Origin: an uncultured Acidobacteriota bacterium
GTDB lineage: Bacteria > Acidobacteriota > Blastocatellia > Pyrinomonadales > Pyrinomonadaceae
DNA: 64,000 nucleotides
Reading direction: 5' to 3'
Assembly (NCBI GenBank): GCA_902826795.1
Contig: CADEGD010000006.1
Coordinates: 1-64,000, forward strand
Below the pieces are notes generated by a model. That model saw nothing but the letters and a program-made list of their open reading frames with translations. It was not told where the DNA came from and ran no database searches. Every line of letters starts with the position of its first letter. Position 1 is the stretch's first letter. The position numbers and the translations under genes were made by a program. Of the stretch, positions 56,680-64,000 are shown one piece after another.

Positions 56680-57432
56680 CTACTTACTCGCCGCCTTCAC
56701 CCAGTCGTAACCCTTCTCTTCAAGCTCGACGGCCAGCTCTTTGCCGCCTTCTTTCACGATCTTTCCGTTCGCGAGCACGTGAACGAAATCCGGCTGGATG
56801 TAATTGAGCAGCCGCTGATAGTGAGTGACAAGGATGACCGCGTTATCGCTCGAACGTAGCTTGTTCACGCCTTCGGCAACGATGCGAAGTGCGTCGATGT
56901 CGAGGCCGGAGTCGGTCTCGTCGAGGATCGCCAGCTTCGGGTTGAGCACCGCCATCTGCAATATCTCGTTTCGCTTTTTCTCACCGCCCGAGAAGCCTTC
57001 GTTCACTGAACGCTTGAAAAACTGCGGATCCATCTCAACGATCTTCGCCTTCTCTTTCAGATAATCGTTGAATTCAAGCGGGTCGAGTTCTTCCTGCCCG
57101 TGGTGCTTCATCTTCTCGTTGTAGGCGAGCCGCAGGAACTGCGAATTCGAAACGCCGGGCACCTCGACAGGATATTGAAACGCCATGAAGACGCCTTCGC
57201 GGGCGCGTTCGTCGGGTTCGAGCTCGAGCAGATTCTTGCCTTCAAACAACACTTCACCCGAGATCACCTCGTAGGCCGGATGTCCGGCAAGCACCTTCGA
57301 CAACGTCGATTTGCCCGAGCCATTCGGTCCCATGATCGCGTGAACCTCGCCCTTATTGACCTGCAAATTCAGGCCGGTCAATATCTCTTTCCCTTCGATA
57401 CCTGCATGCAGGTCTTTAACTTCTAGCAACAT
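56680..57432 (-). CDS. sufC: Fe-S assembly ATPase SufC
   Basis: The 250-residue ABC ATPase has Walker [10 protein letters not shown], the SufC-specific signature [12 protein letters not shown] and Walker [17 protein letters not shown]. It drives the SufBC2D scaffold. It follows the MntA-HepT pair by 3 bp and is probably on the same transcript. Confidence 0.95.
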
Positions 57433-57435
57433 AAG

Positions 57436-57780
57436 CTATTTAATTTCTTCAATTATCCGCTCGATCGCTTTCTTAAACCGGGGCAGATCATCTTTAGCGG
57501 TCCCCCAAATTATGTCGGCGTCGACATCAAAATATCCGTGTACGAGTCGATTGCGGGTCGCGGTGGCTATACGCCATTCAACGTCAGGATAATTGGCTTT
57601 CAGGTCGCGCGTGAGAAAATTCGATGCCTCACCAATGATCTCTATGTTCCTTACCACCGCATCGATCTTTTCTTCATCCGTTGCAAAACGCTCTTGATCG
57701 AAGCCCACAAGATATCGCTCTATCTTCGAAATGGCATCTACGATGTGACGAAGACGATCCTTATTGTTCGGTTTCTTCAT
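57436..57780 (-). CDS. hepT: HepT-like RNase toxin (HEPN, DUF86)
   Basis: The 114-residue protein has the HEPN fold with the Rx4-6H motif in RNRLVHGYF near residue 90, and a leading KDRLRHIVDAISKIERYL. The toxin is silenced when its partner MntA adds AMP groups to the YF tyrosine region. The ATG at 57780 overlaps mntA by 20 bp. It stands directly ahead of sufC. Confidence 0.9.
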   Translation of the reverse strand: MKKPNNKDRLRHIVDAISKIERYLVGFDQERFATDEEKIDAVVRNIEIIGEASNFLTRDLKANYPDVEWRIATATRNRLVHGYFDVDADIIWGTAKDDLPRFKKAIERIIEEIK

Positions 57781-58057
57781 AGATAACCTGAAGGTCACTA
57801 AGTACGCTGCTACGAATATACTTGTTGAGCATTTTTTCCGTAGCCAGATCGACCTTTCGCCCTAAGGACGCTTCTAATTCGTCCGCAATACCGTAAAATT
57901 TCCAACCTATCGGCTTCGAGAATCGAACCAACAGGTCGAGGTCGCTTTCCGGCTTCGCGTCGCCGCGGGCAAACGAACCGAACATCGCACAATAGGAAAT
58001 ATCGTTCTGTTTACAAATCTCGACAATCTTTGCCTGATCAGTTTCTGCGAGTCTCAT
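57761..58057 (-). CDS. mntA: MntA-type nucleotidyltransferase antitoxin
   Basis: The 98-residue protein has the minimal nucleotidyltransferase motif G27-S-FARGDAKPESD39-L-D41-L. It blocks HepT by AMPylation. It overlaps hepT by 20 bp and its start overlaps the phzF stop (ATGA), so the pair is tied to phzF translation. Confidence 0.9.
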   Translation of the reverse strand: MRLAETDQAKIVEICKQNDISYCAMFGSFARGDAKPESDLDLLVRFSKPIGWKFYGIADELEASLGRKVDLATEKMLNKYIRSSVLSDLQVIYEETEQ

Positions 58058-58842
58058 ATGTTGATCTCACCTTTAAAATAGGTCACCGCGTTTCCGCCAA
58101 TGCTTACGCGGTTGCCGTTCAATTCACAAAAGAGTTCACCGCCGCGTTTTGAGACTTGGCGGGCGAAGAGTTTGTCCTTGCCGAGCTGCTCAGCCCAATA
58201 GGGGATCAGCGTGCAGTGGATCGCGCCAGTCACAGGATCTTCCGGAATGCCGATGCGCGGTGCGAACATGCGCGAAGCGAAATCGCAATCGTCGCCCTCG
58301 GCGGTAACGATAACTTCGTCGTATTTGAGTTGCGACAGCGCGTGCATATCCGGTTCGAGCCCGCGAACCTCCTCTTCATTTTCGGCACGCAAAAAAACCA
58401 TGTTCCCTTGCGATTCCCAAACCTCGGCAGGTGTAACGCCAACTGCCTTCGCAAGTTCGTTCGAGTGGGCGATCATCTCGAAAGGATATGCCGGAAAGTC
58501 GAGCACCAATCGATCGCCGTGCTTTTCGACGCCGAGTTCGCCGCTGCGATTCGAATGAAACGGGATGAATGCGTCTTCCAGTTTCAGCTCGTTGAAGATC
58601 ACGTGCGAAGTTGCGAGAGTTGCGTGGCCGCACAAGTTCACTTCGATCGTCGGCGTGAACCAGCGGATGTGATATCGATCGCCTTCTTTCACGAAAAACG
58701 CTGTTTCCGAGAGGTTATTCTCAGCCGCGATCGCCTTCATCGTATGATCTGGCAGCCACTCATCAAGCGGAACCACCGCCGCCGGATTTCCGCCGAACGG
58801 CTTTGCCGTGAACGCATCAACCTGGAAAATTTTTAGTGTCAT
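58054..58842 (-). CDS. PhzF-family isomerase/epimerase
   Basis: The 262-residue protein has the PhzF pattern: FQVDAFTAKPFGGNPAAVV, AENNLSETAFFV with the catalytic glutamate, RWFTPTIEVNLCGHATLA, and SRMFAPRIGIPEDPVTGAIH. It lies in the diaminopimelate-epimerase-like fold. Members isomerise small amino-acid-like compounds; the substrate is unknown. It has nothing obvious to do with phenazine, since no phz genes are near. Confidence 0.92.
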   Translation of the reverse strand: MTLKIFQVDAFTAKPFGGNPAAVVPLDEWLPDHTMKAIAAENNLSETAFFVKEGDRYHIRWFTPTIEVNLCGHATLATSHVIFNELKLEDAFIPFHSNRSGELGVEKHGDRLVLDFPAYPFEMIAHSNELAKAVGVTPAEVWESQGNMVFLRAENEEEVRGLEPDMHALSQLKYDEVIVTAEGDDCDFASRMFAPRIGIPEDPVTGAIHCTLIPYWAEQLGKDKLFARQVSKRGGELFCELNGNRVSIGGNAVTYFKGEINI

Positions 58843-58860
58843 ACTATCTTGGAATTTTTG

Positions 58861-58921
58861 CCACAGAGACCACCGAGTTACGTGAAGCGCAAATTGTACG
58901 CAGTCTCTGTGTTCTCTGTGG
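58861..58921. repeat. Inverted pair of CCACAGAG-type repeats
   Basis: CCACAGAGACCACCGAG (58861-58877) and CTCTGTGTTCTCTGTGG (58905-58921) are inverted copies with two mismatches, around a 27-base centre. The right arm ends directly at the stop codon of the RidA gene (58922-58924). This looks like the GxxExxY cassette without the gene. Confidence 0.75.
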
Positions 58922-59386
58922 CTAATTCTTCCTGCTAACTATCGCCACTACCTCTATCTCAACCTTCGCGTCACGAGGCAGCCGTGCGACCTGCACCGTC
59001 GAGCGGGCCGGGAACGGCGCCTTGAAGTGCTTCCCATAGATCTCGTTCATCTTCGCAAAGTCGTTGATGTCCGCCAGAAACACGGTTGCCTTCACTACGT
59101 TCTCCATCGAACTCCCCGACGCCTTCAACACCGCCGCGATGTTCTTTAGCGTTTGCTCGAGCTGCGCCTCGATCCCGAAGGCTAGCACGCCGGTCTTCGG
59201 ATCTGTCCCGACCTGCCCGGCCGCGAAGACAAATCCGTTCGCGACGATGGCCTGCGAATAAGGCCCGATCGCTTTCGGTGCGTCCGCCGTCTCGACAGCC
59301 TTCTTTACCGAGTTCTGGCCGTGCACGACAGACAGCCCAGCCAGAATGATCAGAAAAGAAACTGCGATCGATATGTTCGTCTTCAT
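58922..59386 (-). CDS. RidA-family protein with signal peptide
   Basis: The 154-residue protein has a signal peptide (ending near SVVHGQ) and a RidA domain: KAIGPYSQAIVANGFVFAAGQVG, FLADINDFAKMNEIYGKHF, PARSTVQVARLPRDAKVEIEVVA with the conserved arginine. Cytoplasmic RidA destroys reactive enamines; an exported one is a variant of unknown use. It is the second gene after sbtA. Confidence 0.88.
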   Translation of the reverse strand: MKTNISIAVSFLIILAGLSVVHGQNSVKKAVETADAPKAIGPYSQAIVANGFVFAAGQVGTDPKTGVLAFGIEAQLEQTLKNIAAVLKASGSSMENVVKATVFLADINDFAKMNEIYGKHFKAPFPARSTVQVARLPRDAKVEIEVVAIVSRKN

Positions 59387-59402
59387 ACTAATTTCGATCC
59401 GC

Positions 59403-60371
59403 TCACGCCTTTGTTGCGACCACGACTGCGTAATAGATCGGCATTCCGATCGTGATGTTCAGCGGGAACGTAATTCCCAACGCCATCGGGATATACAACC
59501 CCGGGTCGGCTTTCGGTGCCGCCAGCCGCATCGCCGCCGGAACCGCGATGTAAGACGCACTCGCCGCCAGGATCGCGAACATAAACCGGTTGCCGACATC
59601 TTGCGTTACCAATCCGCTCGCCAGTGCGATCACGACGCCGTTCAAGATCGGTGCGACGACGGCAAACGCCGCTACAAACCATCCATATTTCGTGAACGCC
59701 CCGAACCGCTTGGCGGTCACCATTCCCATTTCAAGCAAAAAGATCGCCAAAAATCCCTTGAAGATATCGGTCGTAAACGGCTTGATTCCTTCCGCCTGTT
59801 TCGAATCGGCAAAGAAGCCGATCAAAAGGCTGCCGAGTATCATCAGTACGCTTCCGTTCGTGAACGAATGCTGGATGATGTCTTTCAGTTTCCCCTTGCC
59901 TTCGGCTTCGGAATCGTATTTCATCATCAGGATCACGCCGACGATGATCGCCGGCGATTCCATCAGCGCCATTACGGCGACCATGTGTCCGCCGAACGGG
60001 ATCGACTGCGTTTCCAAAAACGATGTTGCGGCGACGAAAGTAACCGCGCTCACCGAGCCATACGTTGCAGCGACTGCTCCGGCATCGCTGACGCTCATTT
60101 TTCGCTTCAGCACGAAGAAGGTGTAAAGCGGAATCAGCGATGCGGCGACGATCCCGAACAGCAGGGAATACAAGATCTCAGCCGAGAATGTGCTGTGAGC
60201 AAGCTCTTGCCCGCCCTTGAATCCGATCGCGAAAAGAAGATAAAGCGAGATGAACTTAACTGTCGTCGACGGTATCTCAAGATCGCTCTTTACCAACGTC
60301 GCGATGATGCCGAGCCCAAAGAACAGCAAGGTCGGATTGGTCAGGTTCGAAACTATAAGGTCGATATTCAT
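59403..60371 (-). CDS. sbtA: SbtA-like sodium-dependent bicarbonate transporter
   Basis: The 322-residue protein has ten membrane segments and the SbtA pattern: GLGIIATLVKSDLEIP, YLLFAIGFKGG, ATYGSVSAVTFVAA, FLLEMGMVTAKRF and a closing ITIGMPIYY. It takes up bicarbonate with sodium. The usual SbtB regulator gene is not adjacent. It lies between two RidA genes, 10-16 bp from each. Confidence 0.88.
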   Translation of the reverse strand: MNIDLIVSNLTNPTLLFFGLGIIATLVKSDLEIPSTTVKFISLYLLFAIGFKGGQELAHSTFSAEILYSLLFGIVAASLIPLYTFFVLKRKMSVSDAGAVAATYGSVSAVTFVAATSFLETQSIPFGGHMVAVMALMESPAIIVGVILMMKYDSEAEGKGKLKDIIQHSFTNGSVLMILGSLLIGFFADSKQAEGIKPFTTDIFKGFLAIFLLEMGMVTAKRFGAFTKYGWFVAAFAVVAPILNGVVIALASGLVTQDVGNRFMFAILAASASYIAVPAAMRLAAPKADPGLYIPMALGITFPLNITIGMPIYYAVVVATKA

Positions 60372-60381
60372 TTTTCAAAGA

Positions 60382-60768
60382 TCACACCGCTCTTGCAGCG
60401 GCGATGGCCTGAATCTCTATCTGCGTGCCGAAGTGCAGATCTTTCACGGGGACGATCGCCCGAGCCGGACGATGTTCGCCCATCACCTCGGCGTATCTTT
60501 TATTCACGGCGGTCCACAATTCCATGTTCGAGACGTAGATCGTGAACTGCAACACGTTGTTCAGATCGCTTCCCGCCTCTCTCAACACGGCCTCGACGTT
60601 TCTTAGCGCAAGCTCCGTCTGCTCTTCGATGTCTCCCGTAAAGGGCTGGCGCGTATCGAGCGTGATCGGCAGTTGGCCGGAGACGAATATCAATCCGTCG
60701 TGTTCGATGCCGGGTGAATAATGTCCTTTCGGCGGCGGCTGATCCGCGGGTTGAATTGTTCGTGACAT
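60382..60768 (-). CDS. Cytoplasmic RidA-family protein
   Basis: The 128-residue protein starts MSRTIQPADQPPPKGHYSPG, has VSGQLPI and the RidA core TELALRNVEAVLREAGSDLNNVLQFTIY, and ends RPARAIVPVKDLHFGTQIEIQAI with the substrate-binding arginine. AGGAG precedes the ATG at 60768. It probably deaminates reactive imines. No signal peptide is present, unlike the RidA at 58.9 kb. Confidence 0.9.
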   Translation of the reverse strand: MSRTIQPADQPPPKGHYSPGIEHDGLIFVSGQLPITLDTRQPFTGDIEEQTELALRNVEAVLREAGSDLNNVLQFTIYVSNMELWTAVNKRYAEVMGEHRPARAIVPVKDLHFGTQIEIQAIAAARAV

Positions 60769-60849
60769 ATATCTCCTAAACAAAGTTCACAGGCTTTTGC
60801 CGAGCATCACAGCCAGCAAAAGCCTGTGAATCACTGTCTCAACTTTCAG

Positions 60850-61401
60850 CTACTTTGCCGCCGGTTTATACGGCAGCGATGAATGGTGCAGGACGATCCG
60901 AAGATTCCCCTTGTCGTCACGCTTGTAAGCCCACGTCTTGTCAACCACGGTTTCCTCTCCTTTGGCGTTCCAAATATAGACATTGCCCATCGAGATCGCC
61001 GTATCGCCGCTAAGGATGATTCCGCGAGGTTTGCTTTCGCATTTCTTCCAGCCTTTCAATGCGAAGCCGCTGTCATCCTTGTACTTCGCGTTTCCGCCGA
61101 CGAAGTAGGCAAGTGCACCTTCTTTATCCATCCGAAAAGTTTGCTCGCCCGTCGTCAACGTCGGTTTGAAAAGCACCACGCCGTTTTGATAACCATAGGC
61201 CGCGTCGATGATGTCGGAAGCGACCTGCGTGTAGTTCCCGCCGGACTCCTTCGTCTCGTTGATCTTTACCAATGCACCGCACCAAGCTTTTTGGGCATCT
61301 TTTACCTGTTGTTCTGTAATATCGTAGCTCGTCACGGTTTGCGCATAGTTAATTGCCGATAACGCGAATGTTAAAACAAATCCCAAAGCCAACTTTTTCA
61401 T
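60850..61401 (-). CDS. Secreted protein of unknown function, downstream of a Mn riboswitch
   Basis: The 183-residue protein has a signal peptide ending at INYAQ and a small NTF2-like-looking domain: DAQKAWCGALVKINE, AYGYQNGVVLFKPTLTTGEQTFR, GALAYFVGGNAKYKDDSGFALKGWKKCESK and GNLRIVLHHSSLPY. Similar proteins have been labelled phosphoribosyl-AMP cyclohydrolase, but no such site is visible. The closing HHSS might bind metal. A manganese riboswitch lies upstream (61576-61674). Confidence 0.72.
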   Translation of the reverse strand: MKKLALGFVLTFALSAINYAQTVTSYDITEQQVKDAQKAWCGALVKINETKESGGNYTQVASDIIDAAYGYQNGVVLFKPTLTTGEQTFRMDKEGALAYFVGGNAKYKDDSGFALKGWKKCESKPRGIILSGDTAISMGNVYIWNAKGEETVVDKTWAYKRDDKGNLRIVLHHSSLPYKPAAK

Positions 61402-61453
61402 TTCTACCCTTTTCTCCTTGAAATTTATTGTCTGCCTAATGTGATCCGCAGGC

Positions 61454-61507
61454 TTACCGATCCCACTCAAACGTTCCGAGTCTGGTCCCGCCTCCGGTTG
61501 GTTTCAT
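61454..61507 (-). CDS. Possible 17-residue leader peptide
   Basis: ATG at 61507 opens a frame of MKPTGGGTRLGTFEWDR ending in TAA. AGGGAAG lies just upstream. It is between the riboswitch terminator and the secreted-protein gene. It might be a real small protein or chance; its short length allows no further call. Confidence 0.35.
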   Translation of the reverse strand: MKPTGGGTRLGTFEWDR

Positions 61508-61538
61508 ATCTTCCCTTGCTCGTTTCGGCCAAAGAGAA

Positions 61539-61585
61539 AAGACCTTTCGCAGAACTGTCGGTTAACAGATCCTGCGAAAGGTCTT
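61539..61585 (-). terminator. Terminator of the manganese riboswitch
   Basis: On the minus strand AAGACCTTTCGCAG pairs perfectly over 14 bp with CTGCGAAAGGTCTT around a 19-base loop, followed by TTCTCTTT. The left side uses the 3' strand of the riboswitch P1 helix (AAGACCTTTC), so P1 and the terminator exclude each other. Confidence 0.85.
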
Positions 61586-61674
61586 GATACTTATCGAACA
61601 AGGCCGGAATGCTTTTTCGCATTCGTAATGACGACCTTGCCACCCTCGTAAGGGCTATCTACTCCCCTCTCACC
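61576..61674 (-). promoter_or_regulatory. yybP-ykoY (Mn2+) riboswitch
   Basis: Read on the minus strand: GAGAGG then GGGGAGTAG (61667-61659), a hairpin GCCCTTACGAGGGT, GGCAAGG with the loop GTCGTCATTACG (61635-61624), hairpin AATGCGAAAAAGCATT (61623-61608), CCGGCCTTGT (61607-61598), and closing CAAGACCTTTC (61586-61576). These are the ordered conserved blocks of the yybP-ykoY manganese riboswitch. The last block also belongs to the terminator stem, so bound Mn2+ should favour P1 and let transcription go on. The usual targets are Mn exporters (MntP, TerC, P-type ATPases); here the next genes are a tiny ORF and a secreted protein. Confidence 0.9.
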
Positions 61675-61681
61675 ACTAAGC

Positions 61682-61711
61682 AAGATAAAGAACCTTCCGC
61701 TTTTTTGTCAA
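61682..61711 (-). promoter_or_regulatory. Promoter of the Mn riboswitch transcript
   Basis: TTGACA (61711-61706) and TATCTT (61687-61682) are 18 bp apart. A start near 61675-61673 would begin the RNA at the GGTGAGAGG of the riboswitch P1, which is the expected place. Confidence 0.65.
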
Positions 61712-61766
61712 GCAGGATCTGTTAAATCGATGTTAAATTTTCAAAGAGCAAGTCTCGTGATCTCAA

Positions 61767-61970
61767 GTCGCCAACGGCGACTGACATTTAAAGCCTAGAG
61801 TGAAGCGAGGTTTCGCGAGCGTAACCCTAGGTTGCTACGCAAAATGTATCTGTCGCTGAAGGCGACGAACGCTCATTGCTCTCTTTCAGAGAGCAGGGAT
61901 CATGTGCCGCATAACCTAGGGTTTCGCAAAGCTTCACCCCAGGCTTTATAAGTTCGTCGCCGTTGGCGAT
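61767..61970. repeat. 204-bp nested palindromic element after sufB
   Basis: Outer arms TCGCCAACGGCGA (61768-61780) and TCGCCGTTGGCGA (61957-61969) are complements. Inside are AAAGCCTAG/AGGCTTT-type arms, ACCCTAGGTT/AACCTAGGGT arms, TCGCTGAAGGCGACGAA and GCTCTC/GAGAGC hairpins. It is the same family as 22191-22385. The right end is 5 bp from the sufB stop codon. Confidence 0.8.
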
Positions 61971-61974
61971 CAAA

Positions 61975-63414
61975 TCACCCAACGCTTCCCTCGAGCTTCA
62001 ATCCCAACAGCTTCTGAGCTTCGACAGCGTATTCCATCGGCAGTTCGCGGAACACTTCCTTGCAGAAGCCGTTGATGATAAGACTCACCGCGTCTTCCTG
62101 CGAGATGCCGCGTTGCTGAAGGTAGAACAACTGCTCTTCGCTGATCTTCGACGTGGTCGCTTCGTGTTCGACGCGTGCCGAGTTGTTCATCACCTCGATG
62201 TACGGGAACGTGTTCGCCTCAGACGAACCGCCGATGAGCATCGAATCGCACTGAGTATAGTTTCGAGCGCCAGCCGCTTTTGGCATCACCTTCACAAGGC
62301 CGCGGTACGAGTTGTTGGACTTGCCCGCCGAGATTCCCTTCGAGACGATCGTCGATTTTGTATTCTTGCCGAGGTGGATCATCTTCGTGCCGGTGTCGGC
62401 GATCTGAGCGTTGTTGGTTAGCGCGACCGAATAGAACTCGCCGATCGAATTGTCACCCTGCAAGATCACACTCGGATACTTCCACGTGATCGCCGAACCC
62501 GTTTCGACCTGCGTCCACGAGATCTTCGAATTCACGCCGCGGCACGCTCCGCGTTTCGTGACGAAATTGTAAATGCCGCCTTTGCCCGTTTCATCGCCCG
62601 CGTACCAATTCTGCACCGTCGAATATTTGATCTCCGCGTCATCGAGAGCGACGAGTTCGACGACCGCCGCGTGAAGCTGATTCGTATCGAACTGCGGCGC
62701 CGTGCAGCCTTCGTTATAGGCGACGTAGCCGCCTTCTTCTGCCACGATCAGCGTCCGCTCGAACTGTCCTGATTCCTGCGTGTTGATGCGGAAATAGGTC
62801 GAAAGCTCCATCGGGCACCGCACGCCTTTTGGAATGAAAACGAACGAACCGTCAGAGAATACGGCAGAGTTCAACGCCGCGTAATAGTTGTCACCGACCG
62901 GCACGACCGAGCCGAGATATTTCTGGATCAGCTCGGGATAATCGGCAACCGCCTCGGTAAACGAACAGAAGATAACGCCTGCTTTCTTGAGCTTTTCCTT
63001 GTACGTCGTCGCGACCGAAACCGAATCGAACACAGCATCGACCGCCACGTTCGCAAGCATCTTCTGCTCGCTCAGCGGAATCCCAAGTTTCTCGAACGTC
63101 TTTATCAGTTCCGGATCGACCTCGTCCATCGAAGCTTTCTTCGGCTTTTGCTTAGGGGCCGAATAGTAAGAAATGTTCTGGAAATCGATGTTCGGATAAT
63201 CGAAGTTCGCCCAGTTGTCCGGCGCGGTCATCTTCAGCCACTGCCTGTAAGCCTTCAGTCTAAACTCAAGCAGCCACTCCGGCTCGTTCTTCTTCGAAGA
63301 GATCAGCCGCACCGTATCCTCGGACAAGCCTTTGGCTATCGTCTCGGTCTCGATATCGGTGACGAATCCGTATTTATATTCCCGGTTTGTAAGTAACTCT
63401 GCTGCTGTACTCAT
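61975..63414 (-). CDS. sufB: Fe-S cluster assembly protein SufB
   Basis: The 479-residue protein has the SufB pattern: [42 protein letters not shown] with a key cysteine, [23 protein letters not shown], and [26 protein letters not shown]. It is the main cluster-building scaffold with SufC and SufD. Unlike in most operons, sufC and sufD are not next to it but 4.5 and 8.6 kb downstream. Confidence 0.95.
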
Positions 63415-63420
63415 TTACTT

Positions 63421-63547
63421 TTCACCACAGAGAGCACAGAGAACACGAAGATTTTCAGGGCATAGTCGCACAACCGAAATCATCCTGTTAATCCTGTACA
63501 TCCTGTTATTTACTGCCTCTGTGCTCTCCGTGTCCTCTGTGGTTGAA
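63421..63547. repeat. Inverted pair of CCACAGAG-type repeats between the Rrf2 gene and sufB
   Basis: The left arm begins TTCACCACAGAGAGCACAG (63421) and the right arm, read inverted, TTCAACCACAGAGGACACGG (63547-63528). The 65-base centre contains three AATCCTGT/CATCCTGT units. There is no gene inside. It occupies the gap from 6 bp ahead of the sufB ATG to 9 bp after the Rrf2 stop. Confidence 0.75.
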
Positions 63548-63556
63548 TTCCCTTTT

Positions 63557-64000
63557 TTAAACCCGCGAAGGCTCGATAGTCCTATGAATTCCTTGTATCT
63601 GATGGAACATCGCATCGACCGACTGTTCATCGCCCACCAAACCCGCAAGCGTGATCCGCGACAACGCGTTTTCGACTATCTCATGCAACCCTACGATCAC
63701 CGGGCGAATGCCGCAATCGCCGGTGTGAATACATTTATCGAGCACTCCCGTATAACTCTCGCAGTGCGAACTCAACACGTCTTCATCGAGCACCTTGATG
63801 ATCTCGTTCAAGAAAATATCGCCAGCCGGCCGTGCGAGAAAATATCCCCCCTTCGTGCCGCGCGTCGAATTCACAAACCCGGCCTTGTTCAGCAGCCACA
63901 TCAGCTTGCCGGCGTTAGCGGTCGATATACCCTCGCGCTCGGCGATCTGCGGCAGCGTGAGAGTTTCGCCATCCTTCAAATTCGCAAGCTGCACAAGGCA
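63557..64000 (-). CDS. Rrf2-family Fe-S-sensing regulator (5' end beyond window)
   Basis: The open frame runs to the window edge, so the first helix of the winged helix-turn-helix is not seen. Visible are EREGISTANAGKLMWLLNKAGFVNSTRGTKGGYFLARP, typical Rrf2, and three cysteines SSHC-x9-C-x5-C (HCESYTGVLDKC, GDCGIRP) that can hold a 2Fe-2S cluster as in IscR/SufR/NsrR. Its position just ahead of sufB suggests it controls the suf genes. Confidence 0.88.
   Translation of the reverse strand, partial: CLVQLANLKDGETLTLPQIAEREGISTANAGKLMWLLNKAGFVNSTRGTKGGYFLARPAGDIFLNEIIKVLDEDVLSSHCESYTGVLDKCIHTGDCGIRPVIVGLHEIVENALSRITLAGLVGDEQSVDAMFHQIQGIHRTIEPSRV

Follow-up and report, generated by a model that had tools for sequence, protein, structure and literature searches.

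Riboswitches of the yybP-ykoY class usually serve Mn exporters or chaperones, among them mntP, alx/terC and P-type ATPases. A survey from 2013 described the regulons of the class as largely transporters (PMC3766115). In the window analysed here (the whole 64,000-nucleotide stretch from an uncultured acidobacterium of the family Pyrinomonadaceae), an RNA element with the architecture of this class is followed by a gene that encodes a secreted protein other than a transporter. This raises the questions of whether the element belongs to the Mn2+ class at all, and of what it would control at this place.

Architecture of the RNA element

The promoter, the aptamer, the terminator and the downstream genes are all located on the minus strand, which the first-pass annotation had left unstated. 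The RNA is preceded by a sigma-70-like promoter (TTGACA-18-TATCTT, 61682-61711, 10 of 12 consensus matches), and TTGA is found within 50 nt upstream of the RNA in 54 of 56 homologous loci. The aptamer (61576-61672, 97 nt) exhibits yybP-ykoY (Mn2+) architecture, scores 101.5 bits with covariance model R1 and 87.8 bits with R2, and is supported by covariation over 33 sequences. Its parts follow in the order P1, L1 GGGGAGUAG, the P2 hairpin, P3, L3 (CGUCAUUAC), P3b, CCGG and the 3' CAAGACC. The 5' strand of the P1 switch helix, GAGAGG (61666-61671), pairs with the 3' strand, CCUUUC (61581-61576), a pairing that is backed by covariation. Loop L1 (61659-61667) forms the invariant core, and in solved riboswitches it holds the A of the A-minor contact (PMC6754395). 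Loop L3 reads UCAUUAC (61625-61631), and its A at 61629 occupies the position of the Mn-sensing adenosine, numbered A41 in the L. lactis riboswitch and A48 in that of X. oryzae (PMC6754395).

The element ends in an intrinsic terminator, AAGACCUUUCGCAG...CUGCGAAAGGUCUU followed by UUUUCUCUUU (61539-61585; fold -30.9 kcal/mol, U in 8 of 10 tail positions). The 5' arm of the terminator includes the 3' strand of P1, so that, judged by sequence and fold, P1 and the terminator are mutually exclusive; in its strict form this sharing is found in 41 of the 56 homologous loci. A promoter and a P1-sharing terminator had already been pointed out in the first-pass annotation, and both were recovered (61711-61682 and 61585-61539, respectively). 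For the 165-nt region, a folding energy of -70.7 kcal/mol was obtained (z = -6.85), which none of 200 shuffled sequences equalled.

P4 is reduced in the window copy to a 3-bp stem at most, one that the sister copies do not keep, and the four-way junction of this copy is thus probably not intact. A full P4 hairpin is present in four relatives covered by the same model (L024, L027, L028 and L029). Between sufB and the riboswitch promoter lie nested, REP-like inverted repeats (61740-61975; AGTCGCCAACGGCGACT ... CCTAGG...).

Assignment to the Mn2+ riboswitch class

The first-pass annotation had named the element a yybP-ykoY (Mn2+) riboswitch with an antitermination platform, and had proposed a search with the Rfam model RF00080 as a check, in which a poor score was to count against the assignment. 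This covariance model (Rfam 15, 177 positions, cut-off 45 bits) gave no match to the element at any E ≤ 10, and no matches in 199 genomes of the phylum at E ≤ 0.001. However, the leaders of E. coli alx and mntP (L012 and L013), classic members of the class that served as a positive control, were also missed by RF00080 at its cut-off, and among 14 control genomes only two had a match above it. Since alx and mntP were missed as well, the search is invalid as a refutation, and the RF00080 model seems far too narrow.

A first covariance model, based on nine relatives picked by DNA similarity, recognised the alx leader of E. coli in its core part (E 7e-5). A second model, based on 33 acidobacterial sequences only, matched the alx leader over its full length (32.4 bits, E 3.6e-6); at the mntP locus it ranked the mntP leader first, at an E-value of 0.097 only. 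The proposed check thus yielded no RF00080 score, while the custom acidobacterial model did connect the element with a known member, and the class named by the annotation, including its antitermination platform, is borne out by the architecture, the covariation, the alx match and the linkage to terC described below.

In the alignment of the 33 relatives we counted 147 double-sided changes, compared to 45.7 ± 6.1 in shuffled alignments (a value reached in none of 500) and to at most 39 in a control with slid pairing partners, and a second, overlapping alignment was in agreement. The covariation supports the P1 and P3 legs, joined at the junction, and P2 in part (62% of cells paired). Covariation of this strength in 33 aligned relatives rules out chance. 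L1 and the CGUCA of L3, which contains the Mn-sensing A, are kept in all nine copies linked to a carbonic anhydrase (CA) and in all 43 copies linked to TerC, and the window copy is identical to its relatives in both core loops and in the Mn-sensing adenosine. The equivalents of L3 are UCAAUUC in L. lactis and ACAUACU in X. oryzae, and in both of these Mn2+ is coordinated by the A that follows the C (PMC6754395).

Homologous RNAs were found with custom models in 16 of 297 genomes of the phylum, 21 of 41 of the genus and 49 of 119 of the family Pyrinomonadaceae; with no matches in the 199 phylum genomes, RF00080 as released overlooks this whole branch. In the 56 distinct loci, the downstream unit contains terC in 43 cases and a CA gene in nine, and is of another kind or cut off in four (two with htpX, one with a universal stress protein (USP) gene and a P-type ATPase, one with a CNNM-like gene). 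The terC gene stands immediately behind the RNA or is separated from it by htpX, a TerB-like gene or a USP gene. Among the known targets of the class is TerC, which in E. coli and B. subtilis serves in the export or loading of Mn (record annotation; PMC10550928). Both sequence and gene linkage assign the RNA family to the Mn2+ class.

A separate terC-linked riboswitch copy is also present in eight of the nine genomes with a CA-linked copy. None was found in the genome of the window, where the matching terC gene (L052) is cut by the contig end, so that a copy may have been missed. In a tree of the RNAs, eight of the nine CA-linked copies grouped together, albeit weakly (73/71), a grouping compatible with a single origin as well as with several. 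Further targets, observed in L087, L088 and L089, are a USP gene with terC, a USP gene with a P-type cation ATPase, and a CNNM/DUF21-like membrane protein, respectively. In genome G031, a weak match to the model (16 bits; L114, 3331-3439, plus strand), just upstream of terC and near a beta-CA gene, is perhaps a third, decayed riboswitch copy.

In comparison with the known yybP-ykoY members (RF00080; E. coli alx/mntP, L. lactis yoaB, X. oryzae yebN), the window copy has the same L1, the same Mn-sensing adenosine in L3 and the same exchange between P1 and terminator, and the linkage to terC is likewise shared, as a feature of the RNA family and not of the window copy. It differs in that P4 is nearly absent, in that RF00080 does not match, and in that a CA gene, with or without SbtA, is found downstream, whereas known members precede an exporter. 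In one relative (L006), SSRC10 (RF02617, 'Streptococcus sRNA 10') scored highest among the weak Rfam matches to the element (27.4 bits). Its consensus has the same blocks, with a short linker replacing P4, but the Rfam entry is an sRNA; SSRC10 is probably itself a streptococcal Mn riboswitch. Weak Rfam matches to MIR7510, mir-4041, mir-3688 and AaHKsRNA82 were rejected as hairpin look-alikes.

The carbonic anhydrase and its gene neighbourhood

The two reading frames that had been described behind the riboswitch, a 17-residue ORF and a secreted protein (61401-60850), are both present. The former (61507-61454, minus strand; MKPTGGGTRLGTFEWDR) is situated between the terminator and the gene of the latter. 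A Pfam search alone gave no match for the secreted protein, which had been annotated as a non-transporter. Comparison with proteins of known structure identifies it as an iota-carbonic anhydrase (iota-CA) of 183 residues with a signal peptide (60850-61401; PDB 7c5x, E 1e-90; 7c5v, E 1e-46), the matching region comprising residues 27-180. T106, Y124, H197 and S199 are important in all2909, and enzymes of its COG4337 subtype are reported to be active without metal (PMC8132391). All four catalytic residues have equivalents in the secreted protein, within its LFKPT, AYFVGG and HHSS motifs.

The protein thus shares the whole domain and the four residues with the COG4337 / NF047901 enzymes (Anabaena all2909 and B. 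natans Bn86287; 7c5v and 7c5x), and consists of a single domain, like other bacterial iota-CAs. It differs from them in being encoded under a Mn riboswitch and in its score with the NF047901 profile (E 2e-59, 200 bits), which does not reach the curated equivalog cut-off of 350 bits; since 200 bits falls below this cut-off, we claim membership of the superfamily and not of the NF047901 equivalog. On the basis of its sequence, the protein is an iota-CA of the COG4337 type and predicted to be metal-independent. A Mn-binding protein, as previously read from the HHSS motif, is superseded by this match.

The iota-CA gene is followed by a hairpin without a clear U tract (60769-60850, -36.6 kcal/mol; perfect stem 60788-60828, CACAGGCTTTTGC...GCAAAAGCCTGTG), possibly a terminator or an mRNA stabiliser. 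Next come the genes of a RidA-family protein (60382-60783, start codon uncertain; PF01042, E 1e-32) and of an SbtA-type Na+-dependent bicarbonate transporter (59403-60371; PF05982, E 5.5e-115, 384 bits versus a cut-off of 27). The match to SbtA is full-length, and the difference from known SbtA lies in the setting, behind a Mn riboswitch and a periplasmic CA and together with RidA genes. In the genome of the window, co-regulation of SbtA is uncertain, the gene being two genes downstream with a strong hairpin between. The riboswitch-CA unit is flanked by an Rrf2 regulator and sufB on one side and by sufC on the other (56680-63994, minus strand), and Mn-dependent read-through could reach sufC also.

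In the 119 genomes of the family, all seven iota-CA genes found have the riboswitch directly upstream on the same strand, and none of ten iota-CA loci outside the family, elsewhere in the phylum, has it. Among related beta-CA genes, 2 of 19 are found downstream of the riboswitch. The CA-linked copies make up nine loci in five genera, with a DUF2490 outer-membrane protein and/or SbtA often following the riboswitch. The order is RNA-iotaCA-RidA-SbtA in the window and G010, RNA-iotaCA in G031 and G032, RNA-DUF2490-iotaCA in G374 and G362, RNA-DUF2490-iotaCA-SbtA in G366, RNA-DUF2490-betaCA in G019 and RNA-betaCA-SbtA in G341. The two kinds of CA are thus swapped next to DUF2490 (beta in G019; iota in G374, G362 and G366) as well as next to SbtA (beta in G341; iota in G366, G010 and the window). 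The beta-CA of G019 and G341 is unrelated to the iota-CA, is periplasmic, and stands under the same riboswitch.

An insertion site between sufB and sufC is common to the window, G010, G031, G032 and G019 (L055-L058), and the iota-CA locus of G374 is without suf genes. Because five of the nine CA-linked copies share one genus and one locus (sufB-sufC), the copies are not all independent events. In G366 (L072/L128), a beta-CA gene, the riboswitch, DUF2490, an iota-CA gene and SbtA stand in one row, and this genome has three riboswitch copies.

Proposed control of a CO2/bicarbonate module

As a member of the yybP-ykoY Mn2+ class, the element (61672-61539, minus strand) would switch transcription ON. 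By analogy with the solved members, high cytoplasmic Mn2+ would clamp L1 to L3 and hold P1 paired; the terminator would then be deprived of the P1 3' strand, and transcription would enter the periplasmic iota-CA gene and, in the genome of the window, continue into the RidA and SbtA genes. In the L. lactis model for ON switching, Mn2+ docking likewise stabilises P1 and the terminator is prevented (PMC11087558). The terC riboswitch was probably copied in Pyrinomonadaceae and then recruited to a CO2/bicarbonate module, in which a periplasmic CA, of the iota type or, in two genomes, of the beta type, may be accompanied by a DUF2490 outer-membrane protein and by SbtA. From the sequences we consider it highly probable that a Mn2+ riboswitch has been recruited to such a periplasmic module as a transcriptional ON switch, the response to Mn being predicted from characterised members of the class.

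The exchange of two unrelated CA classes under one and the same RNA, together with the recurrence of SbtA, points to the interconversion of CO2 and bicarbonate in the periplasm as the most likely function under control. The riboswitch thus seems to govern CA activity or the bicarbonate module, and not to answer a need for a Mn cofactor. The opposite would apply if the iota-CA were itself a Mn2+ enzyme whose synthesis is confined to times of ample Mn and which receives the metal from TerC during secretion. Mn2+ restores the activity of LCIP63, an iota-CA from a diatom (PMC6776030), TerC proteins of B. subtilis metalate secreted Mn enzymes (PMC10550928), and terC and iota-CA genes are found here under the same riboswitch. 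However, LCIP63 is of another subtype, COG4875, while the nearest solved relatives belong to COG4337 and combine metal-free activity with the same four catalytic residues (PMC8132391). Furthermore, a beta-CA takes the place of the iota-CA in G019 and G341. Beta-CAs are Zn enzymes. A Mn2+-dependent iota-CA is therefore unlikely, and the periplasmic Mn-binding or Mn-dependent enzyme suggested by the first-pass annotation is probably wrong, the nearest solved enzymes being metal-independent and an unrelated beta-CA substituting in two genomes.

The module could also serve Mn detoxification, either by precipitating or complexing exported Mn2+ outside the cell as MnCO3 by means of bicarbonate/carbonate made by the CA, or through Mn-bicarbonate complexes acting as antioxidants. 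This would fit a Mn sensor driving a periplasmic CA beside terC, and bicarbonate is handled by both the CA and SbtA. On the other hand, SbtA brings bicarbonate in and does not leave it outside, and nothing on point was met in the literature search, which leaves detoxification with a low probability. The unusual target, and the partial activation of E. coli members by pH alone (PMC9603457), might suggest that the CA-linked aptamers have changed their ligand, to another metal or to pH alone, but this is very improbable with core loops identical in the nine CA-linked and the 43 TerC-linked copies. The sufB-sufC position in five genomes and the strong terminal terminator might indicate that the element is no riboswitch and only terminates or attenuates transcription within the suf gene cluster, but this is hardly credible for a conserved, covarying aptamer with its own promoter that recurs at unrelated loci, before terC and before CA genes in four other genera.

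As to the purpose of a Mn2+ riboswitch in front of a bicarbonate module, the E. coli mntP riboswitch binds Mn with a Kd of 2.4 μM at pH 8.5 versus 41-53 μM at pH 6-6.8, and excess Mn turns the E. coli cytoplasm alkaline (PMC9603457). By the same token, alkaline pH may tighten the Mn binding of the window riboswitch. A periplasmic CA that makes H+ and HCO3-, with SbtA recovering the bicarbonate, would fit a response to alkaline and Mn stress. A Mn2+/alkaline-pH riboswitch may thus run a dedicated inorganic-carbon stress module (a periplasmic metal-free or beta CA, the DUF2490 outer-membrane protein and SbtA) within the Mn response, a reading to which we give somewhat less than an even chance. 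The likeliest purpose, put forward a little more tentatively still, would be for the CA to hydrate outgoing CO2 in the periplasm to HCO3- and H+, with inorganic carbon being retained or re-imported under combined Mn and alkaline stress.

The element represents a known riboswitch class, in a branch missed by Rfam, combined with a target of a new type. No paper in the literature searched, outside which many subscription papers fall, deals with yybP-ykoY or a 'manganese riboswitch' jointly with carbonic anhydrase, nor did the search return one on DUF2490 jointly with carbonic anhydrase. With the riboswitch before two unrelated CA classes and together with a bicarbonate transporter, Mn sensing would be tied to the control of CO2/bicarbonate and pH. 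The linkage provides a handle on two questions, namely the role of bacterial iota-CAs, and why this riboswitch class answers to alkaline pH besides Mn. If the proposal is true, bacteria would use bicarbonate chemistry as a branch of Mn or alkaline homeostasis that has so far gone unnoticed.
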